Assembly: GCA_021234155.1 (NCBI GenBank)
Contig: JAJEKV010000020.1
Location: forward strand, 5,936,563 to 6,000,562
DNA: 64,000 nucleotides
Source of the DNA: Isoetes taiwanensis
Taxonomy: Eukaryota > Streptophyta > Lycopodiopsida > Isoetales > Isoetaceae
Direction: 5' to 3'
The position numbers and the translations under genes are program-made. This document shows positions 21,383 through 38,224 of the stretch, one piece after another. How positions within the stretch are numbered: the first letter of the stretch is position 1; each line of letters opens with the position of its first letter. The notes under the pieces are model-generated. The model did not search any database, was not told the origin of the DNA, and saw only the letters and a program-made list of their open reading frames with translations.

Positions 21383-23445
21383 TTTTTTTCTTTTTTTTTT
21401 TTTATTTATTTAAGATAAACCCCTGTAGTATCAGGGTTATGTTTATATAGATAACGGATGGTCCAGTAGTAATAACATTTTAGTGGCTTTAGTCTATCTA
21501 CAATATAGACAAGGGGATGTGTTAATATTTGACAGTTAAATGATTGTGTCGGAATTTACATATTGAAGGTAAGATACACCCATTAGACACATAAATATGA
21601 ATGATATGTGTGTGGATATTGCAATAGAAGGCTTATATTTAACAATAAAATACTGGCAGCTTAAGATCGAGCTTACACTAATAAGAAACCATGGTGGAAA
21701 TACCCATTAATGATACTGGTATGGGTATAAGGGACCTTTCTTAACTATTTAGGTTATCTAACCTATCCCGATTAGGGTTGACCATATCCAGCATCCTAAC
21801 CTAAAGATGCATGCGGCGGGGTTATGAGTTTTGGTACAGACGGAGAAGAGCCATCCGACTTTGATAGTGAATGGCTTAACGCCGAAGCACTTAGACGTGA
21901 TTTTGAAGATTGTGGGTTATACAGTGATAACGAAGACAGGGATATGGAAGCTAGAGGCTCCAGGGGAGGCTTCGGGCTGAATAGGAACCCTTATAACAAG
22001 GAAGACAGGGATAGCTTTCAAAAGGGACCTAGAGCTTCTGGAAGAAAGAGACAAGGAGATTTTAATACCGCTCAAACTGTGGATGAAACACAAGATATGG
22101 ATGACGATCTAGAACTGAATCAGGTTTATCGATCTATTCTGTCTTGTTAACTCTAAAACTGATTGTATAAATAGAACATTATGGGTTTAACATAAATAGA
22201 TATCTAGCAATCCATTGATATTTATCCGATAGTAACCTGCGACATCTGTTTAGTATGTTGCATGCTAAGTTATGATTCTTAAAGCCATCGAAAAGCCTCA
22301 TGTGATTATACCTTTGGCTCATATTAATGAGTATATCAGGATCTGTCATGTTTAAAAGAGCATATGTTTATGATTAAAATCTCTAATCTGGTATAGTCTT
22401 ATTCATACATCCTTTATTAACCCAAGGGGCAAAAGAGGACAATGGGTGACCAGCGAAGAGCTGAAAACCCCAATGGACCTTTTGGCCCTTGCCCTGTTAC
22501 CAAGATTATTGCTAACAGAGTATTGATTGGCTGCAGGTACGGGGTTTTCCTCCCATTGTCCACTTTTTGTTCTTTAGGTTTTTTCTGGATGGATGGGTAA
22601 GATTGTCACTTGAAGATGCCATGGTATAACTTGGTCTCGGATCTCAGGTTACACATAAAAGGAAAACATGAGGGATACCAGTTCTGGTCACATAATATAC
22701 ACCTCTAAATATGCTGATTTATAATATTTATGCCAGCAGTAGTACATTGTCATTGCTTATAAAGTAAATTTGGCAATAACAGGTTTAGAATGTTTGACAT
22801 ATGGCCCAGATATGCTACTATGAAGTTCTCTAGTTAGCATTTGATGACCAAAAACAGTATCTACGAGATCATATAGATTTGACTCTATAATTTTGGCTTA
22901 AGCATGATTGCTAGTTTATGTAATTGGTCTTAATGAGGCCTCATTTCGTTGAAAACTAATAGAAATCATCTTTTATGAAACTGATACATGTATTTCGTTA
23001 CTGTCTATGAATTTAGGCTGATCAATGAACTTATGTGTCTTGAGTTATAAGTATAAACCCGGGGCTGGTTATACCTTTCTGATTATTGATCAAACAATCC
23101 GTGGTTTAGACTATGGAATTCTATCTTGAGATGGTGGCTGTCCTTTAAATATATCATAAGAAACAATAGATTTCAATGGCATGTGGTTAAATTTACAAAT
23201 GACTGTAAAGCTTGAATACAAGCTAAAACTGGTTGAATGGGTCCAAAGCTTGAAGTGTACATAAGATCTAGCTTCAATATTCTATGACTTAGATACTACA
23301 GTTTAACATATTGCTGTAAATACATGAATAAGAGACATAAAATATGTAAATGAGTAAATTAATGTTGAAGGAGACATGGTAATAGCCTTATATTGGATTA
23401 TATGGCCTAATTTTTTGAAAAAAAGTAGATATATTCTGCAGAGTT
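21383..23445 (+). repeat. Left pseudo-LTR of the PLE
   Basis: Direct repeat of 31809-33867. It starts with a GGGGGTTTTTTT run, then AAGATAAACCCCTGTAGTAT, and ends at CTGCAGAGTT. Differences from the right copy are a few substitutions plus an 11-bp insertion in the right copy near 32131. In exon 1 only about four of 300 bases differ. This high identity suggests that the tandem structure is recent. Confidence 0.9.
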
Positions 23446-26400
23446 TGGTGGGTCCTAAGATACTATACTGGATTCGCTCAGTCCAGATATAGGATGATAA
23501 TACTACCAAAGGATTGACTGAGGTGGATGTTCGTGCTATGATTAAATAGTTCAAACCGGCTTTTTTTTAGACACTTCATCACATTTGGTACATCCAATGT
23601 TATCTATGGCTTGCTTACTATCTGTTTGAGCTTTTAGGTAAAACCCAGGAATCTTTCCAGGATTTTGTATATAAATGAATAATCTAATGATTGATACATT
23701 AAAATGATACAGTAATTGAAAGTCTTGTAACTGCTGGAAATTTTGCATATCGTATTACTAAAGAATTTTGCTCTACAGGATAACTATGAGGATGAAGAGG
23801 AATTCGAGATTATACCCCCTACCTGGAACAGTCACCTGATTGCCATAGGGTATGATAAAAATAGAATTGAGTGCCCGAATGCGGCTGTTCAAACTATTCT
23901 CTGCTGCATTAGAAATATGAAGGTGCATGAACTTATTCTGGAAAGGGAGGCTATTCGACTACCAGAACAAATTTCTGCAGTCACGCATTTGGGATTTAAT
24001 GAGTGGCTTCTACTACTCCCAAAGATCAACAAATTATCAGACAAAGAAGAAGAGGTATGGGCCTTTATTTCTGATCTATATGCAAGCTTACCACAAAAGA
24101 TATATGAATGCACCAAGGAAGAAGATGACTGCAACAAAAAATTCATTATAGGAGTGACAGCTTTAGAAGATGCCAATGACCTTAAAAATTCCCATGGAAA
24201 AGAAGAAGCTTTGCTACGTATGAATGTTGCAGAAAACTCTAAAAATGATCTAGACACCTCGGATGATATCTTTGGTGCAGATTTGTTAACTGAGGAGGAC
24301 AAGGCAGTACTTATACCTAAAGAGGCAGGGAATACACATGATAAAGAAATGGACTTCAAAATTAACTTGAATAATTGCCTGAAATTCCCTATTATACCTA
24401 GCAGGTTAGTAGAATGTCAAGGATTACTATGTAACCAGGCTTTGTGGCGCACCAAAAACTTTGGGGCTTTAGCTCCTATTAGTGAAGAAGCATGGTGCAT
24501 CCTAGGAATTATTACCAAGGAAAGAGTCTGCCAAGCAAAAACTGAGGCCTTCAAGATGGTCAGAATGAAAAAAACCAGAATTAAGCTCGAAGTTACTACC
24601 AGGTTCTTTGATAAGAAATGCATGAAAAGTGATCAGATGATACTATGCCAAAAAGGCCATATGGCATACACCAATATTCTAAGGGATGATTTCTTTCTGA
24701 AAAGACTGTGGCGGACTATGTGCCCGTACTTTAAGTGCATATGTGAGGATAAAATCAAGAACAAACGGAGTAACCAGTATAACCCCAATCAATGTGGTGA
24801 AAGCATGATCTGGTTCGACCAAGCCATTTGGTACATGCTGAATAACTTGAGCTCTATTTACCCCAATATGTCCACTGCCGGACAAATGGTGGCATTTAGA
24901 AACTGCCTAAAGACTGTCTTGAAAAGTGGGGTGGCAGCATTTATTGCATACCTGGACGTCAGAAAAATGCTGGTTGATATGACCATGACTCAGGCTGCTG
25001 ACCCAAAGGGCTGATCTTAAAATTACACACCCAAAAGGACTTATGTGTGATGTATGTGAAAAGACAATAAAACCTGTGGAGTTTTTAAAGAATACTTATG
25101 GTACAGCCAGCTCCAACAGTTATAGATCAACTAAGCAGAATTCTGTATCAAAATCAAAGGGGAGCAACATAAACATTAATGCTCCGCCTATAATTACTAT
25201 AAGACCAGGCATAACCTGCATGAATGCAATGTCTGATGGTAGCAATATAGAAGGTTTGGGGACACCCCGCAACGTGGGACACTCTGTCACTAAAGGGAGC
25301 AAAAATGCATTTAAGTGGAAATGGGCAGCACTGTACAAGCCCTTGTTTATGAAAAATAAGGTATGTCTTGCTCTATTTGAAATTGTATCCATGTATGCAT
25401 TTGCTGTTTCTATGGTTATGATTACATTTGTGAATAAAAGTTGGGTCTAATCCTAGTTGGATGACACTAACAACATTGGACACCTCATTAGTTATGAGGT
25501 AATCCTAGGCCATGTGGCTTATTCTATCCTACTTCAGTTATCGAAGTCTGATGATCTGAATAGCCGTAAATACCCATCTAATGTCCTGAACACCTATAGA
25601 ACTAAAGTACTAATTATTTGGTAGTTCTAACTATATTCTTCTTTCAGAAATCGAAAATTTTACAGAAAGATGTGTTGGGCAGACTACATCTTAAAGATTA
25701 CTCCCCCAAACAGAACCTTAAGATTGTACACAACACCTTTTTATCCAAAATACTGGACAAGGTTTGTATACCCAAAATAATACATGGAGTGATGGTGGAT
25801 TGCCTAGGGGAAATTGGAGAAGCAATCATGAGTGATACTATGTTTGCATGGAGCTATACAGAAAATATGAGAGACCTATGTTACAAACCCTACTATATCT
25901 TTGCTCAAGAGAGTGAAGATGTCTGCCCTTGTTCTATTCTGCAACTAAAGAGGTTTGTAGATCCAAGTATTGGCCACATAAGAACTACAGACTGTATGGT
26001 AGTTCAAAATAAACAACTGAGGAAGATGCTTATGCAAGGTCTGAATCATATCCCGGATAAGAGTCTTGTTTGGAAGGAATTCAAAAATGACATGGAAGCC
26101 ACCATTGATAAACTAGTCGAAATGCATAAATACACATATCCACACATTGACGATGAGATCAGGGCTAAGGTTTACCATAGAGTATGCTAAACAGAAGATC
26201 AAGGACTCCTTTATGAAGGATAATACTAGAAAATTCCCGCTAAGTGATATCAAGGTGATTAACAGTATAATCTGGCTCAATAAGTTCCTATATGTCTCTG
26301 GAGTGGACAAGGCTACAAATAACCCAGTCTTCATATGTCCCAGACATGTGAAAGAAATGGCTGATTTAAGACTTCAAAGCAAAGATTTCAGACTAGTTGA

Positions 26401-26539
26401 AATGGAACAGGTTGCTGTTATCTGGAAATGTAAAACAGAGATGGTAAATATTATGCAGTATACAAAAGATAGCTGTGAAAAATTACCATATTTGTTAGGG
26501 GTTTATAAGGCCCATAAAAAGGAATATCGATGGATCAAT

Positions 26540-26815
26540 ATGTAGCATTATAACAGGGGGTTTTTTTTGTGATTTTATACGCTTTTTGGCATGGTTTTCA
26601 TATGATTTCATGGGCGTATTGCACGAGGCATACTAATCAGTACATCTAGAGTGCACTAAGTTTTTGCATGCAATTTGTGCAATTTTGTTTCATCCTCCTC
26701 AATGGTTAAGATCAGAGGGCTTACAAAGAAAGCCCTCTTTTAATTCAAAAAGATCCAAGGGCTTATAATCAAAGCCCTTTTCTTTCATGCATTTCTTCCC
26801 TTGGTAATTCAATGG
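26540..26815 (+). repeat. Dispersed MITE-like repeat, family A (copy 3)
   Basis: Starts TAGCATTATAACAGGGGG, then a T-run, GATTTTATACGC, CATATGATTTCATG, TACATCTAGAGTGCA and two AAAGCCCT-containing stretches. The order and words match the copy at 39033. Its first base falls directly at the break in the RT frame. Confidence 0.6.
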
Positions 26816-27028
26816 TCACAACGTTTTTTTTTTTTAATAGAACCCATTGCATTTTAAGGGAGAAAAGGACGGGCCTCAAGCATCGAGAGAGAATTAAGAG
26901 AGACTTATTAGGCCTTCTTTGGCGGCTGCAGCAGGTCAGTAGCCGGATCAAGCGTTTGGCGTTAGTGCGGCTACAACATGCCGGAATCCAGGTAGGCTGC
27001 AGTTGCTTGAGCTAGCGCAAAGGGTTTT

Positions 27029-27686
27029 TTTGAGGTTACGCATGATATTTCCCATCTTACATGTGCTGATTTTCTCCGTGGTCCGGGGGTTCAGACCCCA
27101 ATCATTTTGCGATTTTCAATTGTAATTCACGAAAGAGGGAGTCCAGAAACATTACGAGATCCTAGGGGATTTGCTGTTAAATTTTACACCAGAGAGGTAA
27201 TATGGTCGGTTGCAACTTAAAATTCGATGAGCTTTTCTCACATCAGCTGATTTTGTTATGGCTTACCAGGGTAACTTTGACATGGTTGGAAACAATTTTC
27301 CAGTGTTTTTTGTAAGGGATGGTATGAAATTCCCTGATATGGTCCATGCTTTAAAACCAAATCCGAAATCTCATATTCAGGAAAATTGGAGAATCTTGGA
27401 TTTCTTCTCTCATCATCCTGAGAGTCTGCACATGTTTACCTTCCTTTTTGATGACGTGGGGATCCCATTGAACTACAGGCATATGCCAGGATTTGGCGTT
27501 CACACTTTTACCTTGATAAATAAAGCCGGCACCTTGATAAATAAAGCTGGCAAACGCACCTATGTGAAGTTCCACTGGATTCCAACCTGTGGGGAAAAGA
27601 ATCTTCTGGATGATGAAGCAGTTGTTGTTGGAGGTTCAAATCATAGTCATGCAACTAAGGACCTATATGATGCTATTGCAGCAGGA
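27029..27686 (+). pseudogene. Catalase gene fragment with one intron
   Basis: Exon 27029-27196 reads [20 protein letters not shown] and continues to [15 protein letters not shown] 73-bp GT-AG intron (27197-27269) follows. Exon 27270-27686 continues [20 protein letters not shown] through [20 protein letters not shown] to [16 protein letters not shown]. This corresponds to the middle ~190 residues of a ~490-residue plant peroxisomal catalase. The N-terminal catalytic His region, the heme-Tyr region and the C-terminal targeting signal are missing. A 21-bp in-frame tandem duplication repeats TLINKAG (27511-27552). The frame is otherwise open. The retained intron shows capture as DNA, not by retrotransposition. 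Sequence after 27686 is unrelated. Confidence 0.9.
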
Positions 27687-28169
27687 TATGTTCACTGTGT
27701 TTTTACAGAACAAGAGTCTCTCATTCCAGCTTTTGCCCATTTAATTTCAGTTTTCAACCTTCCCTTATCGGTAGTGTCATGCCTGCACGCATGTGCCCCT
27801 TCTTAAATTTTACACCTACTTGCAAAACTAGTTCCCTTGTTGCAGCTTTTTTCTGTAATGTATCAACATCAGACCAGACGCTATTTGTTGCTTCAGGCCA
27901 GACGCTATTTGTTCTACCATAATGCCAGGCAGCTTGGGTTCTTCGGGGAGTTTAAAACAAGAACTGACACAAAGACTGAAGATTTAGAAGCAGAAGCAAG
28001 TAAATGAAACAGCTTGCTTACATTTTCTCCCTCCTTTCATTCATAAAATGGCCGTGAATGTATAGTTGCAGAGTATGTATTCACAAGTACAATGCGTTGG
28101 GAGCTTGTCAAGTGAGGGCTCAACATGTTTTTGTATAGTAAGTTCTTTTTGTTTTTCATCTCTTTCAAA
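27687..28169 (+). other. Insert interior, unrecognised
   Basis: The catalase frame runs on into unrelated sequence and stops at 27806. A later plus-strand stretch (about 27890-28005) reads YHNARQLGFFGEFKTRTDT and may be another captured exon piece of unknown origin. Confidence 0.3.
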
Positions 28170-28740
28170 TAATGCACAGACAGGGGATTGCACATTGAAG
28201 ATCAGATTTTGAAGAATGGCCTTCTGGTTGAGGTTTCTGTGAGAAGCACCATTGTGGATATGCATGCCAAATATGGGAGGTTACAAAGGTCTTTGTCATG
28301 TTGGGAAATAGGGATGTGGTAACATGGAATGCAATAAATAATGGTTACACAGCATGTCAAAGTTCTTCTTTGCACTAGAGTGCTTTGAGAGAATGCAACT
28401 GAAGGAAATAAAACCAGACAGAATAAGCTTTTTGAGTCTTATGTGTGCCAGCATTGGGAAAGTAGAGAGGGCCAGATGCATTCATGAACTAATTAATGAG
28501 ACAGGCCTCCAATCTGACATTTCTATGGGAAGTATGGTGTAGATATACATGTTGTACATAAATGTGGAATTGTAAAGTAAGCTCATAGTATCTTTAGCCA
28601 AATGCTAATCAAAACAAAGCATGATGGAATGCAATGATTATAGGGTATACTCAAAATGCTGAAGACCTCGTTGCACTAGAATATTTTGAGAATATGCAGC
28701 AGAATGATGTAAAGTCAGACAGTATTATGTTGTCAATATC
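28170..28740 (+). pseudogene. PPR gene fragments
   Basis: Pieces in several frames: STIVDMHAKYGRLQ, NRDVVTWNAINNGYT, ALECFERMQLKEIKPDRISF, CIHELINETGLQSDIS and NAMIIGYTQNAEDLVALEYF. At least three PPR units, broken by frameshifts and stops. Same orientation as the catalase fragment. Confidence 0.7.
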
Positions 28741-28914
28741 ATCTAATGGTATCGTTAGCATTCGCAATGGTTCACCATCCGCTATCATTCACCATGTGTT
28801 ATGTTTTATGTTTTACTGTGTTGTGCTTTTTAGTAATAAATATTTAGGCCCATAAAGTTTACCTATGCTTGCTTTAGTTAGGGCCCGAAGGGCCCAAAAT
28901 TTTTTTTAATATAA

Positions 28915-29363
28915 CAACCAACACGCAACTACCATTAACATTATTAACACAAACCATTGCATTTAACACATTTAAATTCAAATCCCCCTTAAACCCCCTT
29001 TGGTTTGGGTGCATATTCACACGGGGGGTTACTCCGGGCAACGAGAGCTGTCGGATGGGCATATTTGCTCATTATTCTAAGATCTGGATCGTACATAGCG
29101 ATCCTCGTTTGTGGGGTATGCATATACAAGTTTTTGTATACTGTATATTAAAGTTTGCAAAATACTATAAGGTTCCAGAGAATATACTTAATGGCGTTAA
29201 TTTTATACATGTATTGTAAATTTTTTGGAGCTCTCGCTGCCCTACGTAACCCCCCGTGTGAATATGCACCCAAACCAAAGGGGGTTTAAGGGGGATTTGA
29301 ATTTAAATGTGTTAAATGCAATGGTTTGTGTTAATAATGTTAATGGTAGTTGCGTGTTGGTTG
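28915..29363. repeat. Inverted repeat with ~134-bp arms
   Basis: 28915-29049 and 29230-29363 are reverse complements with only a few mismatches near the inner ends. The outer ends are CAACCAACACGCAAC and its complement; the loop is ~180 bp. It may be a foldback/MITE or a hairpin-RNA source. Just outside, at 28879, is a GGGCCCGAAGGGCCC word, with a similar GGCCCCGAAGGGGCC word at 39989. The two matching open frames on opposite strands are artefacts of this symmetry. Confidence 0.85.
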
Positions 29364-29446
29364 ACGCACATAGAACGGTATACACTAGATTCTCTAATGT
29401 TATCACTGCTGTGCTCAACATGATAGTGGAAATATGGCCTAGTATG

Positions 29447-30021
29447 TCGTCGATTCGCGTAGCGAATCGGCATTCTTGCTCAAGACGAGCATGCATGCAT
29501 TGCATGCGTCGCATGCATGCATCGCATGCGTTTTGGGTCGTTCTTCCGGTTGGGCGTTTGCTACTTATTGCGGAATTCTTCATCGACGTTTCATCGGCGC
29601 TTCCTCTTCTCTCAGCAGTACCTTATTCTCTTTGAATTGTTTCCAGGCAGGGGAGGGGCTTCTTCCTGCCTGGTTTGGCCAATTTGGCGTTGTTTTCCTG
29701 CTGTCCTTTCCGGCCTTTAGCCTTCATCTTGTGACCTTCGTCCTCGATCCTAGTTTGTTAAGGAAGTCCTTTGGTATTCGGGCGCTTTGTTGGTTTCATG
29801 CAGTCGAATTGCGGTAAGAATGTCGTCGATTCGGCGTAGCGAATCGGCATTCTTGCTCAAGACGAAAGCATGCATGCATTGCATGCGCCGCGATGCATGC
29901 ATCGCGATGCGTTTTTGGGTCGTTCTTCCGGTTGGCGTTTGCTACTTATTGCGGAATTCTTCATCGACGTTTCATCGGGCGCTTCCTCTTCTCTCGCCAG
30001 TACCTTATTCTCTTTGAACCC
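29447..30021 (+). repeat. ~195-bp direct duplication with palindromic core
   Basis: 29447-29640 and 29822-30020 share a block starting GTCGTCGATTCG and ending TACCTTATTCTCTTTGAA. Each copy contains a GATTCG...CGAATC palindrome and nested GCATGC palindromes. A further shared word, TCGGGCGCTTTGTTGG, occurs at about 29777 and 30496. Copies differ by small indels. Confidence 0.85.
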
Positions 30022-30253
30022 ACCCTCCCCCCCTTTCTTTGTTTATTATATTTTGTACAAGTTCTGTTTTTCATGTTTTTCCACCCGGTGGGTGATGCTT
30101 TTTTTCCGCCCACTGGGTGATGCTATTCTCTGGTATGTTTCTCGTTTGTTGTGTTGGTGATGTGCGTACTGGGTTGGTGGCGCCATCCGCTTTGACTTCT
30201 CCATCGCGGGGGTTTTGGGGCGATTCTATGCCTTACGTTTGTCTAAGCCCCCC

Positions 30254-30336
30254 TTGCCGAAGGCTTATCACTAGGGTTTTTCCTCGAAAACCCGAAAGGG
30301 CGGGGTTTTTTAATCCCGGTGATAAGCTTTCGGCAG
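30254..30336. repeat. Stem-loop
   Basis: TGCCGAAGGCTTATCAC and GTGATAAGCTTTCGGCA form a 17-bp stem with one mismatch, around an ~50-base GC-rich loop that can pair further. It might be a transposon terminal hairpin (Helitron-like), but no CTRR end follows closely. Confidence 0.6.
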
Positions 30337-31623
30337 GTACATCAGCCACTCATCTATTAGCATTGTATTTGTTTTTGGGGTCCAAATGATATAATTGGAT
30401 TTTCCCTTTATTTTTCGTGGGTAGTTCGCATGTGTGCGGCTATCCACTGTCCACCATTGTAGAAATCTGCTGAGATGAATGAGAAGCCTATCTATCGGGC
30501 GCTTTGTTGGTTTCATGCGAGTCGCAGTGCAAGTATTGCTAGAAAGTCATGTGAACAATTCTGTAATCTGTTCCCTAATAAAATAAACCCCAACTGGATG
30601 GTACAATCCATATATGATGTGGTCCTGAATATGCCAGATAAAATCACTGACATATTTGTTGCTGATATCACAAGATGCTATGAATGCATACCACTGATGG
30701 GCGAATCAGGTATATGCCATGTGATTTCTATGATCATACATGAAACATGGGAATATATGAAGGGGTTACATTATAACAATAAACTCTGGATTAAGTATGA
30801 TAAAGAAGAGCAATATATAGCCAAATGGTTCAAGGTGGACCCAAAAGGGAAATGCTGGAATTTAATGACCAAGGATATCTGCATACAGGCTAATCTATGG
30901 TTACTCACAAATTGCTATATTATGAAAGGGCAGAAGACTTGGTTACAGATCAGTGGGATACCCATGGGATTCGCATGCAGCCCATGTTGGTGCAATTTAT
31001 ATCTCGCTTGGTTTGAAGCAAAATTCATGTACAATTTGGCAAAACAAGGAAGATACAATGAAGCAGGTTTATTCAAGCATACATACAGGTATATGGATGA
31101 TGTACTGTCACTAAATTGTCCTGATATCAGAAAGTTTTTGCAACTGTTGGATGATGGCAGCAATGATGACTTACAAATATATGACATTAGATATCTTGGG
31201 GTTAAAGAGGAAACTATATTCAAAATAAAGGATGACCCTAACTGTAAGTTTGGCTATAAAGGAAACTTTCTGAACATGACTATTGAGATTCTCAGTAGGG
31301 CCAAAGGGATTTACAGAACTACCAGATATGATAAGAGGGATGAACTCCCTTTTGTTGCTATCAAATACATCCATGCTAATAGTTGTAGACCGTATTTTCA
31401 AGCAAGAAATGTCATTATCTCCCAAATCCTATCATACATGTATATTAATACATGCCCCAAGACTGCTGCAAAGGACATCATGATGATTATTAAAACCTTC
31501 ATGGAAAACGGGTTTGACAAAAAAGGTCTCAATACAAGTGTACACAAATATGTGTGCAACAATCCATTTCCGGGTCTAAGATATGACGCTGAAATTCTAC
31601 AAAGTTATCTTACACCGAAATAA

Positions 31624-31808
31624 ATAAGGTATGTCTTTATTTATTGCTACTATAAAAAGCTGTTCCTTGATTTAGGCTTAGTATGGGTATGGTTTAACCC
31701 CTGCTGTGATAGTGGGGGTTAGCCATTCCCATGGTCACGGTAATCATTAAGCAGTATGTTTACATGCTGTATAGGGTGTGTTAAACTGTACTTCCAGGGA
31801 TGGGGGTG
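31624..31808 (+). other. PLE 3' untranslated region
   Basis: Follows the RT stop. It contains a short stem (TAACCCC with GGGGTTA, about 31697-31721) and leads into the right pseudo-LTR. No hammerhead-ribozyme core was seen. Confidence 0.45.
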
Positions 31809-33867
31809 GGTTTTTTTATTTAAGATAAACCCCTGTAGTATCAGGGTTATGTTTATATAGATAACGGATGGTCCAGTAGTAATAACATTTTAGTGGCTTT
31901 AGTCTATCTACAATATAGACAAGGGGATGTGTTAATATTTGACAGTTAAATGATTGTGTCGGAATTTACATATTGAAGGTAAGATACACCCATTAGACAC
32001 ATAAATATGAATGATATGTGTGTGGATATTGCAATAGAAGGCTTATATTTAACAATAAAATACTGGCAGCTTAAGATCGAGCTTACACTAATAAGAAACC
32101 ATGGTGGAAATACCCATTAATGATACTGGTATTATTTCTCTATGGGTATAAGGGACCTTTGTTAACTATTTAGGTTATCTAACCTATCCCGATTAGGGTT
32201 GACCATATCCAGCATCCTAACCTAAAGATGCATGCGGCGGCGTTATGAGTTTTGGTACAGACGGAGAAGAGTCATCCGACTCTGATAGTGAATGGCTTAA
32301 CGCCGAAGCACTTAGACATGATTTTGAAGATTGTGGGTTATACAGTGATAACGAAGACAGGGATATGGAAGCTAGAGGCTCCAGGGGAGGCTTCGGGCTG
32401 AATAGGAACCCTTATAACAAGGAAGACAGGGATAGCTTTCAAAAGGGACCTAGAGCTTCTGGAAGAAAGAGACAAGGAGATTTTAATACCGCTCAAACTG
32501 TGGATGAAACACAAGATATGGATGACGATCTAGAACTAAATCAGGTTTATCGATCTATTCTGTCTTGTTAACTCTAAACTGATTGTATAAATAGAACCTT
32601 ATGGGTTTAACATAAATAGATATCTAGCAATCCATTGATATTTATCTGATAGTAACCTGCGACATCTGTTTAGTATGTTGCATGCTAAGTTATGATTCTT
32701 AAAGCCATCGAAAAGCCTCATATGATTATACCTTTGGCTCATATTAATGAGTATATCAGGATCTGTCATGTTTAAAAGAGCATATGTTTATGATTAAAAT
32801 CTCTAATCTGGTATAGTCGTATTCATACATCTTTTATTAACCCAAGGGGCAAAAGAGGACAATGGGTGACCAGCGAAGAGCTGAAAACCCCATTGTACCT
32901 TTTGGCCCTTGCCCTGTTACCAAGATTATTGCTAACAGAGTATTGATTGGCTGCAGGTACGGGGTTTTCCTCCCATTGTCCACTTTTTGTTCTTTAGGTT
33001 TTTTCTGGATGGATGGGTAAGATTGTCACTTGAAGATGCCATGGTATAACTTGGTCTCGGATCTCAGGTTACACATAAAACGAAAACATGAGGGATACCA
33101 GTTCTGGTCACATAATATACACCTCTAAATATGCTGATTTATAATATTTATGCCAGCAGTAGTACATTGTCATTGCTTATAAAGTAAATTTGGCAATAAC
33201 AGGTTTAGAATGTTTGACATATGGCCCAGATATGCTACTATGAAGTTCTCTAGTTAGCATTTGATGACCAAAAAAAAAGATTCACGAGATCATATAGATT
33301 TGACTCTATAATTTTGGCTTAAGCATGATTGCTAGTTTATGTAATTGGTCTTAATGAGGCCTCATTTCGTTGAAAACTAATAGAAATCATCTTTTATGAA
33401 ACTGATACATGTATTTTGTTACTGTCTATGAATTTAGGCTGATCAATGAACTTATGTGTCTTGAGTTATAAGTATAAACCCGGGGCTGGTTATACCTTTC
33501 TGATTATTGATCAAACAATCCGTGGTTTAGACTATGGAATTCTATCTTGAGATGGTGGCTGTCCTTTAAATATATTTATAAGAAACAGTAGATTTCAATG
33601 GCATGTGGTTAAATTTACAAATGACTGTAAAGCTTGAATACAAGCTAAAACTGGTTGAATGGGTCCAAAGCTTGAAGTGTACATAAGATCTAGCTTCAAT
33701 ATTCTATGACTTAGATACTACAGTTTAACATATTGCTGTAAATACATGAATAAGAGACATAAAATATGTAAATGAGTAAATTAATGTTGAAGGAGACATG
33801 GTAATAGCCTTATATTGGATTATATGGCCTAATTTTTTGAAAAAAAGTAGATATATTCTGCAGAGTT
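31809..33867 (+). repeat. Right pseudo-LTR of the PLE, truncated
   Basis: Near-identical copy of 21383-23445. It contains a second exon 1 (32245-32544, 100 codons, open), followed by the intron 1 donor at 32545. The homology stops at 33867, where satellite-like sequence begins, so the second copy has lost its remaining coding exons. Confidence 0.9.
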
Positions 33868-33868
33868 A

Positions 33869-34272
33869 TCCTCCTCCCAGTGTGGCAATTAGAAGTCAAG
33901 AGCACCTTTTGCAGTAGCAAAATTGTTTGGGATCATTCGGGATAGCCAATAGATCCAAACTCTGTTATTTCAGTTGCCATGGCTCAGCATGTGTGTTTAG
34001 CAAAGGGCACCTAGCTATCCAAGAAAATGACCACGTTTTGGCCTCCAAAACGTAAACCCTGTGTGTTGCTAGGTTATTGTAGGGTTTATGTTTCGGAGGC
34101 CAAAACGTGGTCGTTTTCTTGGACAGCTAGGTACACCTTTGCTAAACACACATGCGGAGCCATGGCAACTAAAATAACAGAGTTTGGATCTATTGGCCAT
34201 CCCGAATGATCCCAAACAATTTTCCTACTGCAAAAGGCGCTCTTGACTTCTAATTGCCACACTGAGAGGAGG
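33869..34272. repeat. Foldback with ~192-bp arms
   Basis: 33869-34060 and 34081-34272 are near-perfect reverse complements around a ~20-base centre. The sequence belongs to the 1.13-kb satellite family (words for CTCCTCCC-GTGTGGCAA and CCAAAACGTAAACCCTG). One satellite segment has therefore been duplicated head to head. If transcribed, it would form a long hairpin. Confidence 0.88.
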
Positions 34273-35160
34273 ACAGCTCCAGACCCCATTCCATCAGTTC
34301 CTATTGCTTCATGTTTTCAATTGCAGCTTCTCAACCATGTCCCAAGTGCAACCGACTAAAACTCGACCCCCATAATGTAAACCCTTCAATAACCTAGCAA
34401 CACACATGGTTTACATTTCGGAGGCCATATTCTAGTCAGATTCGACCCGGATCTTGCACAATGTCATCACGTAGAGGGAGGGTGTTGATGCCAGAAGACG
34501 GACCCTTAAAACCTTCCGGAAGCAGTTCGCCCTAAAGGTCCTCTCCCGAAGGCCCCTGGCCACGGACGGGCAACTCTCCCACTCCAAAACTGTGAATTGA
34601 CTCTCCTAATGGACTCGAAACGTCGACTTTACCCTGGGGACCAAGTTTCGTGGGCAGAAGAACACACCTTCTCCAAGAAGCACCAAAGTAGCTCATGTCC
34701 AACATGTTCGCAGTCAATTAGCCTAGGAGGTGGTTGCAGAATACTGCCATGTAGAGGGTTCGTGTTTCTTTCGTTGCCAAAAATGACCATGTAACTTAGT
34801 CCCTGGGGTAATTTTGCCATTCCGGACGATACGGCGAAGTCGAATCTCCATTCCAGAGCCTTTGGCATGCCCCAACGACAAAACACTTGGTTTTCTATGC
34901 GGTCAACTCGCAGGATTTTTCTGAGCCCGCTCGAAGCAGATTACTTGAATGGCGGATTCAACGGGCCGGATAGGAAAATTGGGGGGGGGGGGGGAAGGGG
35001 GCATTGTCATTTGCCCTCCCAAAGGAGTTGACGGAGAAAGGCTGCCTCCACAACCTTTCTGAGGTCTATCTCCGGGGGTCTGGCCTCTCCCTTCTGGTGA
35101 GGAAGCCGCGCAAAGTCCTGGCCTGATTTGATTTGGGGAAGGGTGTCAGCGCTTTAACTT
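34273..35160 (-). repeat. Diverged 1.13-kb satellite unit with poly-G run
   Basis: Same landmark words in the same order as in the 47.5-56 kb array (for example GTTTACATTTCGGAGGCC, CTCTCCCGAAGGCC, GACCAAGTTTCGTGG, AACGACAAAACACTT), but more diverged. A run of 14 G at 34981-34994 interrupts it. Orientation is as in the right-hand array. Confidence 0.75.
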
Positions 35161-35403
35161 CTTCAAGATCCCTTTATTCTATCCCTTGCCAAACTCCTCT
35201 ACCAAAAATTTGAAAGGTTATCATATTTCTTGCATAAAGTCCTAGTCATCATATCCATGTCACCATCATCAAGCCATGTCACCCAAAATTGCCAACATCA
35301 CTTAATGAAAAGACCAAAGATGGACATCTTTTCATTTTTGGCCTAGTCAAAACCTGTCCTTGCTTACTTGGCATGCCATGTCACCACTTGGAGTGCCTAG
35401 GTG
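35161..35403. other. Lead-in to minisatellite
   Basis: No gene. Short words related to the minisatellite (TGGCATGCC, GCCTAGGTGG) begin near 35360. Confidence 0.4.
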
Positions 35404-36293
35404 GCATGCCTGAGTCACCTTGGCATGTTGGAGCCCGTGTGGCATGTTGGAGCCACCTTGGCATGTTTGAGCCTAGGTGGCATGTTGGAGTCTAGGTGGC
35501 GTGTTTTAGCCACCTTGGCATGTTGGAGCCTAGGTGGCATGTTTGAGACCACCTTGGCATGTCTGAGCCTAGGTGGCATGTTGGAGCCACCATGGCATGT
35601 TGGAGCCACCTTGGCATGTTTGAGCCTAGATGGCATGTTGGAGCCACCTTGGCATGTTTGAGCCACCTTGGCATGTTTGAGCCTAGGTGGCATGTTTGAG
35701 CCACCTTGTCATGTTGGAGCCCACATGGCATGTTGGAGCCTATGTGGCATGTTGGAGCCCGCGTGGCATGTTTGAGCCCTCTTGGCTTGTTTGCGCCACC
35801 TTGGCATGTTTGAGCCAAGGTGGCATGTTGGAGTCTAGGTGGCATGTTGTGAGCCACCTTAGCATGTTTGAGCCTAGGTGGCATGTTGGAGCCTAGGTGG
35901 CATGTTTGAGCCACCTTGCCACGTTTGAGCCACCTTGGCATGTTGGAGCCTAGGTGGCATGTTGGACCCCGCGTGGCATGTTTGAGCCACCTTGGCATGT
36001 TGAAGCCTAGGTGGCATGTTTGCCACCTTGGCATGTTGGAGCCCACATGGCATTATGGAGTCCACGTGGCATGTTTGAGCCACCTTGGCATATTGGAGCC
36101 TAGGTGGCATGTTGGAGCCTAGGTGGCATGTTTGAGCCCACCTTGGCATGTTTGAGCCGCCTGGTATGTTTGAGCCTAGGTGGCATGTTGGAGCCACCTT
36201 GGCATGTTGGAGCCCACGTGGCATTATGGAGTCCACATGGCATGTTTGACCCACCTTGGCATGTTGGAGCCTAGGTGGCATGTTGGAGCCTAT
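35404..36293 (+). repeat. 19-bp minisatellite array, left part
   Basis: About 47 units of 19 bp with consensus GAGCC(TAGGT or ACCTT)GGCATGTT(G/T). The two unit types often alternate. Long open frames on both strands encode only repeats such as HLGSNMPRWLKHA and are artefacts. The array is interrupted at 36293 by an inserted element and continues at 43147. Confidence 0.95.
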
Positions 36294-38224
36294 CACAAGG
36301 CCCCCAAAAAAGAACACGCATAAATAATCACCATGAAAACTAGTATAAGTGTGATTTTTCATACTGATAAATTGTAATCTCATAAAAAACTATATATTCT
36401 ACATGGTTTTGTAAATCATTACTAGTTTGCATCATATTTTTGATACTAATTCTATTTCTTATACTAGTTTCTTGAAATCATCACTAGTTGGGAGGTGTTT
36501 TTCTAGCGTGCATTTTTAATACTGTAATATAGGATGATTTCTAATGCTAATTGTCAATAACCTATATGGTTTTTGTAATATAGTTCTAATGCGCTAAACT
36601 TAGTTCAAAGATCGCATTTGATTTTGCAAATATGCTATGCTTTTGCTACTTGCTTATTCTATAGTCCATTTTGATCTGGTTTATATTGTTGCTTTTATTA
36701 TAAAGCCACTATTAATTTTCCATATTAACTAGTCATTCCAACTACTATACCTAATTCTTCAGGTGTTGCAATCTTCAAAAGCATTAGAATATCTTAATAG
36801 CCAGGAACTTCAGTTCACCATCTCTCTGTAGTATGTGGTATTGGGTGTCGATGAATGGTGATAAGTATGGATATGCCACATTATCTATAGTTTTGTCGAT
36901 GGATGAGAATAGACCCATAGTCGTTTCTTCGTCAAAAGATATTTGTTAGACTTTGCCATCTCAATTAACACTCTTAAGGTTGGTACGATTGACTAGATAG
37001 TCATTCTCCAACATTAAACTAGAAAGGATTATTGAAATTTTGACCAGCATACCTTGGGACTTAGCGGCCATGGTAAATTCAGATTTGACTGATTACAAGT
37101 GTTTTAATCACCTAGAGGTCTACGTGGCTCATAAATATGGGTGATCATGCCATTGAATAATGTTTTAGAAAATGTTTGTTGAAGGATGCATTATCTTTTC
37201 TTTCATTCACATCTTTCTCTCTAGCCATAGATCAGTTTGAGTAGGAAGTTATACAATACAAGTTCAATGTCGTAAACAACTTGAGTGAACTTATGGTCCA
37301 CTAGATTGGGTGCTATTTGTAGGGCATTGTTACATTTTGACAAATAAAATACATTTATTAATTAATTGATATATATTTTGTAGGGAATGACATGTGCTAT
37401 CTTTAGCATGTAGTGCACAACTACGTATAGCCATCTATAACAATTGAAGGAATTAAAAAAAGGGTTCTCAAGAATGCGTTCTAGAGCTCGAACATTCTAA
37501 AACATTGTACTTTGGGTTTTTGCAAAGTTTAAAAAAAAAATCTATCTTTAGATTGAGGTGCTTATCCATGAGCATGGGAGCACTTGTTGAAGTATGCTTT
37601 TACTGTAATATTTACAATTTGTAACTTAATTAGCAGAAACAAATGAATGCCAATAAATGCTTTGGCTACTTCCGGGTGGGCTTGGGATACTTTAGGTATG
37701 TTAAATATGCTAGCCCCTTGACGATCATCTTTAATAAACAAAAGTCATTAGATTTTCTATATTATTTAATAGTCGAATTCCAGCCTCTTTGGTAGAACCT
37801 TCAGCGCCATCAGATCCAACATGGGCATCATACCTTGTCACTGGTTCTAGAAGGTTCAGATAAACCAGTCTTCCTGCACTGGATCAACTTAGTTTGGTTG
37901 CTTAATCTGATGATATGAACTAGTGAATCCAAAAAAAGCAAAAAATGCTGCCAGTAAATCCAAGGACTGCTTAGAAAAACATTGGGAAGAATTTAGGAGT
38001 TTGCATGTCTGAATTATGTGGTGGGTGGAAGATGGTGCTCTTATGCGTGGGTGAGGCAAATATGCATCAGCACATTGAGGAGCGAACATTTGCAATAGTG
38101 GTAAGTATTTAGTAGACTAAAGCACCTGATGAGAGTATTGTGGCAGATCCGAATTGACTTGTACAGAAATGTCGGATTTTTGGATGCCATTTGGCAACAA
38201 ACCTATGGCCAATTTAATTCTGAC

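Follow-up and report, generated by a model that had tools for sequence, protein, structure and literature searches.

A retroelement of the Isoetes genome and its relatives

The 64,000-nucleotide stretch of Isoetes taiwanensis DNA examined here (the window, C1019:5936563-6000562) holds, at about 21383-33867, a decayed copy of a genuine repeated retroelement, likely a Penelope-like element (PLE). A unit of this element consists of a pseudo-long terminal repeat (pLTR), exon 1, intron 1, exon 2 closed by a stop codon of its own, intron 2, exon 3 encoding the reverse transcriptase (RT), a 3′ RNA motif and a run of eight T residues (T8), followed by the next partial or whole unit (Table 1). Comparison with related copies suggests that the element has no recognisable endonuclease, joins T runs at both ends and would begin reverse transcription at a hairpin box within intron 1, on RNA that has not been spliced.

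The window copy is dead, with disrupted frames in exons 2 and 3 and two insertions splitting the RT. The original prediction, made from the letters of the window, had called it an intron-retaining PLE lacking a GIY-YIG nuclease. The features behind that call are in place: the RT motifs ADITRCYECIPL, GIPMGFACSPCWCNL and YRYMDDVLSL and the GLNHIP and KAHKKEYRWI blocks are all present, the direct repeats of about 2 kb are 98–100% identical per block of 290–300 nucleotides and each carries exon 1, and both introns have GT..AG ends, with boundaries and phase 0 that hold in related copies. Intron retention and the lack of a GIY-YIG domain were borne out and PLE membership is likely; what did not survive is a continuous RT in the window. 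The foldback element within the first insertion has 135-nucleotide arms that are 97% complementary. The opening of this insertion, TATGTAGCATNATAACAGGGGG-T7 (26537-26560), also opens an insertion at locus L004 (downstream piece L005) and belongs to an unnamed second mobile element.

An assembly-wide search for copies (1,658,258,908 bases, 1110 contigs), proposed at the outset as a check, returned more than 100 scored matches, many with long open frames. The RT piece gave 109 listed matches (a rough first pass put forward about 4112 candidates, of which 107 were scored; best E value outside the window, 2.5e-245) and the exon-2 piece 102 (101 scored of about 3614; best outside the window, 4.9e-232). 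These relatives are spread over dozens of contigs, and many have open frames of about 530 residues (exon 2) or 690–700 residues (exon 3), with none above 603 and 751 residues, respectively, among the matches listed. For the single copy pair with measurable synonymous divergence (dS), the ratio of nonsynonymous to synonymous change (dN/dS) was 0.08 for each of exons 2 and 3.

The comparison of repeats covered 22 copies, namely the window copy, L001 and 20 others retrieved as flank pairs, with L002 and L003 examined at their junctions alone. Terminal repeats were found in 21 of the 22, the exception being L010, and identity along the main stretch was 89.6–99.7% for most copies. Head-to-tail pairs of RT matches 4–8 kb apart, on contigs C1031, C1084, C918, C73 and C703, would suit tandem amplification of the DNA or fill-in during repair at T runs, with no present retrotransposition of the family. 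This explanation is nevertheless very improbable, because the copies lie on dozens of contigs in unrelated flanks and both of their ends are placed identically.

Table 1 Features of the window copy (window positions; limits of the element and of its two insertions are approximate)
Feature	Position	Strand	Support
5′-boundary T run (T7 C T13)	21383..21403	+	5′-boundary T runs in 20/20 copies with resolved boundary
pLTR 1, part repeated in the window copy	21401..23445	+	Repeat comparison
Exon 1, 100 codons including ATG, RGG-type, donor CAG/GT in phase 0	21824..22123	+	
Intron 1	22124..23778	+	Acceptor CAG/GA in 22/22 copies; phase-0 CAG/GT donor in 12/14 parsed
Conserved structured RNA island within intron 1	22418..22600	+	22/22 copies; fold z −2.95; covariation
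Putative RT-start box: hairpin, GGC, T8 (23561-23568), second hairpin	23505..23600	+	T8 is the end of 12/15 copies
Exon 2 (open reading frame 1, ORF1), frame disrupted near 25011, stop codon 25357-25359	23779..25360	+	
Intron 2	25361..25647	+	
Exon 3 (RT ORF) piece 1, frame disrupted near 26190	25648..26536	+	
Insertion 1, contains foldback element 28915-29363	26537..29363	.	
Exon 3 piece 2, RT remnant (AHRTVYTRFSNVITAVLNMIVEIWP)	29364..29440	+	
Insertion 2	29441..30529	.	
Exon 3 RT core, terminates in TAA	30530..31623	+	
Donor-like AATAAG/GTAT directly 3′ of RT stop	31624..31632	+	AG/GTA in 17/21 readable copies
3′ RNA motif: alternative pairings X-A and X-B, loop paired with K; G-rich end	31683..31810	+	
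T7 at unit junction	31811..31817	+	
pLTR 2, cut short within intron 1	31811..33867	+	
Exon 1, second copy, inside pLTR 2	32245..32544	+	
Intron-1 RNA island, second copy	32838..33020	+	

Two predicted proteins with a common leader

Exon 1 was located by tblastn in 16 of the 22 copies (weakly in L042, in part in L001 and L008), with its donor 297–321 nucleotides past the ATG in the 12 of 14 parsed copies that have it, and the exon-2 acceptor is invariant. In all 11 copies read, the exon-2 stop codon lies 1–7 nucleotides before a GT donor (AG/GT in 10, GG/GT in L046). The window conforms: in the frame common to other copies its exon 2 ends ...MGSTVQALVYEK-stop, one base 5′ of the donor. The spacing from stop to donor is 1, 5, 6 or 7 nucleotides among copies, so the frame from exon 2 into exon 3 is not constant. 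In each of the 10 copies readable here, exon 3 itself starts in phase 0, with a K/R-D pair 24 nucleotides farther on (by eye). Because exon 1 would join exon 2 and exon 3 each in constant phase 0, two messages with a common leader are predicted, and our best reading of these splice signals is two proteins sharing the exon-1 leader, one from exons 1 and 2 (about 627 residues) and one from exons 1 and 3 (about 790 residues). The original prediction had placed about 650 residues ahead of the RT in one protein with it. The exon-2 stop overturns that arrangement and rules out a single protein of about 1,320 residues in one frame.

One match, C1078:15114374-15114700, passes straight from exon 1 to exon 2, skipping intron 1, and contains one TAG and two TAA; it may be a processed copy lacking intron 1, with C1007:20208868 illustrating that chance extension of a match into an intron occurs.

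The RT frame ends at the same point in related copies as in the window, with no GIY-YIG nuclease after it, as had been proposed. Pfam detected GIY-YIG neither in exon 1 nor in any of 13 exon-2 or 11 RT proteins, a GIY-YIG too diverged for Pfam being possible. All 11 RT proteins matched RVT_1 (best E value 1.6e-6; below the curated cut-off where shown); the RT had no match in the PDB, and searches of virus, prokaryote and plasmid collections for its relatives yielded nothing useful. The region before the RT, said at first to resemble nothing recognisable, kept that status: exon 1 had no Pfam match, and exon 2 had no significant Pfam match in 13 of 13 members and none in the PDB. No protease, integrase or RNase H was matched by Pfam in exons 2 and 3. 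Single-sequence structure models were too poor for use, with predicted local distance difference test scores (pLDDT) of 31.6 (exon 2) and 37.6.

Element ends and target sites

Wherever the 5′ boundary could be resolved (20 copies), the element starts at the unit-junction position, with a T tract and then AT-rich sequence. The outer T run (8–31, median 18.5) exceeds the run at the inner junction (7–10, median 8) in 19 of the 20, the two being equal in L042. At the other end, which could be resolved in 15 copies, 12 stop at the second T8, that of the box inside intron 1. Here too the outer run is the longer (9–25, median 15, versus 7–8 inside, median 8) in 11 of 11 copies; L008 ends one base before the T8. 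The 3′ count leaves aside L004 (another insertion), L010 (no repeat), L014, L018, L032 and L038 (repeat extends to the limit of the piece) and L016 (repeat continues into exon 2).

Paralogous sites were sought with nine right flanks as queries, of which five were informative (L012, L024, L034 and L036 were not). For L028, four of four paralogs keep both flanks around T6–T8, compared with T23 and T16 at the filled site, and for L020 the one paralog has both flanks around T26. The element-free paralogs of L030 (5 of 5, at least T10), L040 (7 of 8, at least T5) and L006 (4 of 5, at least T5) also have T runs, with the right flank being the end of another repeat. By eye, the box of another element closes the left flank in L012, L036 and L002. 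These comparisons of sites suggest that the element inserts at T runs.

Target-site duplications were scored in 15 copies, and the same-copy scores fell within 210 cross-copy controls (maximum 16.5), except for L020 (21.0). The L020 candidate was discarded because its element-free paralog L136 has the identical repeat; the score of 13 for L036 reflects a left flank that is itself the end of a PLE (by eye). The ends therefore resemble homopolymer joins without duplication. Likewise, the long interspersed nuclear element (LINE) features of an apurinic (APE) or restriction-enzyme-like (REL) endonuclease, a poly(A) 3′ end and a target duplication were not found by Pfam on exons 2 and 3 or by the target-site tests.

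The lack of duplication bears on two other explanations. Exon 2 could be an undescribed endonuclease with which the element itself cuts T/A runs, as its conservation under purifying selection, its lack of a known match and its visible conserved Cys, His and Asp residues might suggest; with no target duplication and no support from the fold (the exon-2 model being that of pLDDT 31.6), we give this a slim chance. Alternatively, a different element, for example a LINE or a free GIY-YIG protein, could supply the enzymes that mobilise the copies in trans; this would fit the resemblance of some targets to poly(A) tails of other repeats and the abundance of GIY-YIG frames in the genome (121 matches listed; 150 of 263 candidates scored). 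We nonetheless consider it unlikely: no target duplication stood up, none of 12 GIY-YIG loci examined had an RT- or exon-2-profile match, no listed GIY-YIG match lies within 30 kb of a listed RT match (by eye) and element-specific ends favour the element's own RT. Separately, GIY-YIG frames at L144-L150 and L055 adjoin helicase-like frames resembling Helitron ends (by eye), and the genome may contain a GIY-YIG-bearing Helitron family.

Structured RNA at the putative start box, the 3′ motif and intron 1

At the start box, one hairpin precedes the T8 at which copies end and a second follows it. We examined this region in 42 copies (L101 has no T run in its piece). Of the 41 box hairpins compared, 39 were stabler as sense RNA than as antisense, the exceptions being the window copy and L117; among other 44-nucleotide windows of the same copies, used as the control, 255 of 440 were stabler in sense.

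The 3′ motif was found in 60 of 62 copies examined; 57 were kept (L022, L073 and L097 were left out), of which 56 were distinct and 38 remained after thinning to below 85% identity. In this motif, which shows covariation, strand X pairs with nearby A and with B farther along; K pairs with the loop of the hairpin, forming a predicted pseudoknot. For X-A, X-B and loop-K the within-sequence pairing energy beat all 2000 permutations (z about −8, −12 and −10.5), and six unproposed pairings, which gave z between −1.8 and 2.5, are the sole guard against relatedness, which the permutations ignore. The loop-K run is four pairs or fewer in 6 of the 38 sequences. The window motif folds better than all of its shuffles (z −3.55). 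X-A and X-B share bases and are mutually exclusive, so the motif could be a switch.

These strand preferences address the possibility that the template is antisense. In such a scheme a polyadenylated antisense transcript would be copied, the 5′ T run would be its poly(A) tail, and introns would be kept because antisense RNA cannot be spliced. The idea is raised in the part of PMC3846280 available to us, argued from palindromes and intron retention, and that part leaves an antisense template and an unspliced sense template both possible as the cause of intron retention in PLEs. It accords with the length and variability of the 5′ T run and with three intron-1 island helices that are stabler in antisense. 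We judge it improbable, as the hairpin at the 3′ boundary favours sense beyond its control, G-U pairs in the 3′ motif read in sense exceed A-C pairs (X-A 39:18, X-B 52:10, loop-K 22:8) and the lengthened 3′ T run is not explained by a tail at one end.

The island itself was recovered in all 22 copies with a profile built from four of them, and in the window it folds better than all shuffles. Four of its helices beat all 2000 permutations; the proposed helix a-a2 failed, being reached by 199 of 2000. The unproposed helix d-b2 was also strong (z −3.5), so the permutation test of the island is not clean. A fold like that of the hepatitis delta virus ribozyme, which requires a-a2, was rejected. 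Searches of the window copy and L001-L003 with Rfam families, ribozymes among them, gave nothing useful and no hammerhead at E values up to 5, the kind of ribozyme typical of PLE pLTRs. The island also contains TGGCTGCAGGTACGG (window 22540-22580), a joined acceptor–donor look-alike that is nearly invariant among copies and might be a decoy or a stepwise splice site.

A proposed model of endonuclease-free insertion at T runs

We think it probable, if by no means assured, that the window holds a decayed member of a multi-copy PLE without a recognisable endonuclease, which makes two spliced proteins and starts reverse transcription internally, primed at T runs, from the intron-1 box on unspliced sense RNA. 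Exon 1 would be spliced either onto exon 2, giving the ORF1 protein, or onto exon 3, giving the RT protein. By analogy with PAc of the anole, we infer that the hairpin and U8 box in intron 1 of the downstream repeat is the RT start site: where a T/A run is broken or nicked, its A tract would anneal to U8 and act as primer, and the A8 at the far end of the complementary DNA would anneal to the opposite side of the T run. Such a mechanism would lengthen the homopolymer at each end without duplicating the target, would require no endonuclease and would leave the introns in place. Since the box lies within intron 1, only unspliced RNA could serve as template, and introns would always be retained because spliced messages lack the start box.

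Several observations weigh against this model. The box region of the window copy folds no better than shuffles (z −0.03), and its hairpin is no stabler in sense than in antisense. Three of four island helices are stabler in antisense, leaving the strand evidence mixed. Two of 22 copies (L010 and L018) yielded no 5′ boundary, and three of 15 resolved 3′ ends fall off the T8, one in the 5′ part of the box (L036) and two earlier (L042 and the window copy, whose second repeat stops about 115 bp short of the end point used by 12 of 15 copies). For L006, L030 and L040, the paralogs with T runs are themselves termini of other repeats, resembling poly(A) tails read on the opposite strand. Copies were selected for having exon 2 and the RT, so that badly truncated ones are unrepresented. 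PLE membership is likely from sequence, with the RT compared with TERT and Gypsy-type RTs, and we infer splicing, initiation and template strand alike from genomic DNA.

A bolder version, which we regard as doubtful, has an endonuclease-free RT using its own pseudoknotted RNA to extend A-tract 3′ ends at broken T/A runs, in the manner of telomerase, in the chromosome interior. The intron would filter message from template, and the 3′ motif would be a two-state switch between RT stopping at the junction and running on, setting whether a solo repeat or a full copy results.

Why PLEs retain introns is a long-standing question; with a start box in intron 1, if true, splicing would suffice to keep message and template apart. 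Insertion at dispersed T tracts, if true, would mean that endonuclease-deficient PLEs can leave telomeres by exchanging a short primer-pairing sequence, and the 3′ motif would count as a new structured RNA, adjoining a telomerase-related RT, should it act as a switch. The portions of the literature consulted, in a search not covering the 2007 and 2017 telomeric PLE, 2014 hammerhead and 2021 Chlamys and Naiad papers, describe no such Isoetes element and no RT start sited in an intron; in the portion available to us, the main text of the I. taiwanensis genome paper (PMC8566536) does not mention Penelope.

Flanking repeats

Directly after the element, window 33863-34443 consists of nested inverted repeats with Rfam matches to microRNA precursors below gathering scores. 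Farther on, a 19-nucleotide tandem array at 35345-36389 reads on the minus strand as an uninterrupted repetitive frame.

Comparison with known elements

Canonical endonuclease-bearing PLEs carry GIY-YIG after the RT, and Naiad and Chlamys carry an N-terminal endonuclease. Coprina is an endonuclease-deficient PLE of fungi, of the telomere-associated kind. The Isoetes element shows the PLE hallmarks of pLTRs, tandem or partially tandem units and introns kept in genomic copies. It resembles the endonuclease-deficient PLEs (Athena and the Terminons of rotifers, Coprina and the Selaginella element) in having an RT without an in-frame GIY-YIG, two ORFs and head-to-tail arrays. It differs from the telomeric ones in having T8/A tracts instead of telomere repeats and, in four copies, no hammerhead match. 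The telomeric position raised at the outset was not supported: beside L001-L053 there was no run of two or more TTTAGGG units, though the telomere motif is present in the genome. An endonuclease-deficient PLE of plants has already been reported from Selaginella (PMC12477314, in the part available to us). The accessible text of PMC6431247 describes hammerhead ribozymes in pLTRs as common among PLEs and, for Terminons, a structured RNA that exposes a short simple repeat beside the ribozyme fold to pair with the telomere primer end.

The closest parallel for the start box is Poseidon/PAc of Anolis, in which, according to the portion of PMC11167929 at hand, an internal stem-loop is where reverse transcription starts, and genomic copies end at such start sites. 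On the same partial source, PAc and the Isoetes element share whole or partial tandem units, pLTRs, a stem-loop start marking copy ends and AT-rich targets, whereas PAc has GIY-YIG and a hammerhead, and its start stem-loop lies in the ORF rather than in intron 1.

Like long terminal repeat (LTR) retrotransposons, the element has direct terminal repeats bearing the start of the gene and a G-rich stretch directly before the 3′ repeat, which recalls their polypurine tract; unlike them, it keeps introns, ends in T runs and shows no protease, integrase or RNase H in exons 2 and 3.

When the RT profile was compared with the ORFs of five loci, plant TERT scored best, weakly (10.3 bits, E 2.3e-4, about 50 residues) and above the Gypsy-type RTs tried. 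A second, low-complexity TERT, unlike the plant TERT at L056, lies at L057 on contig C1062, which may come from another eukaryote such as a fungus. The Isoetes element differs from TERT in that no telomere repeat template was seen; the two are alike in this RT-profile match, and both would have a pseudoknotted RNA.

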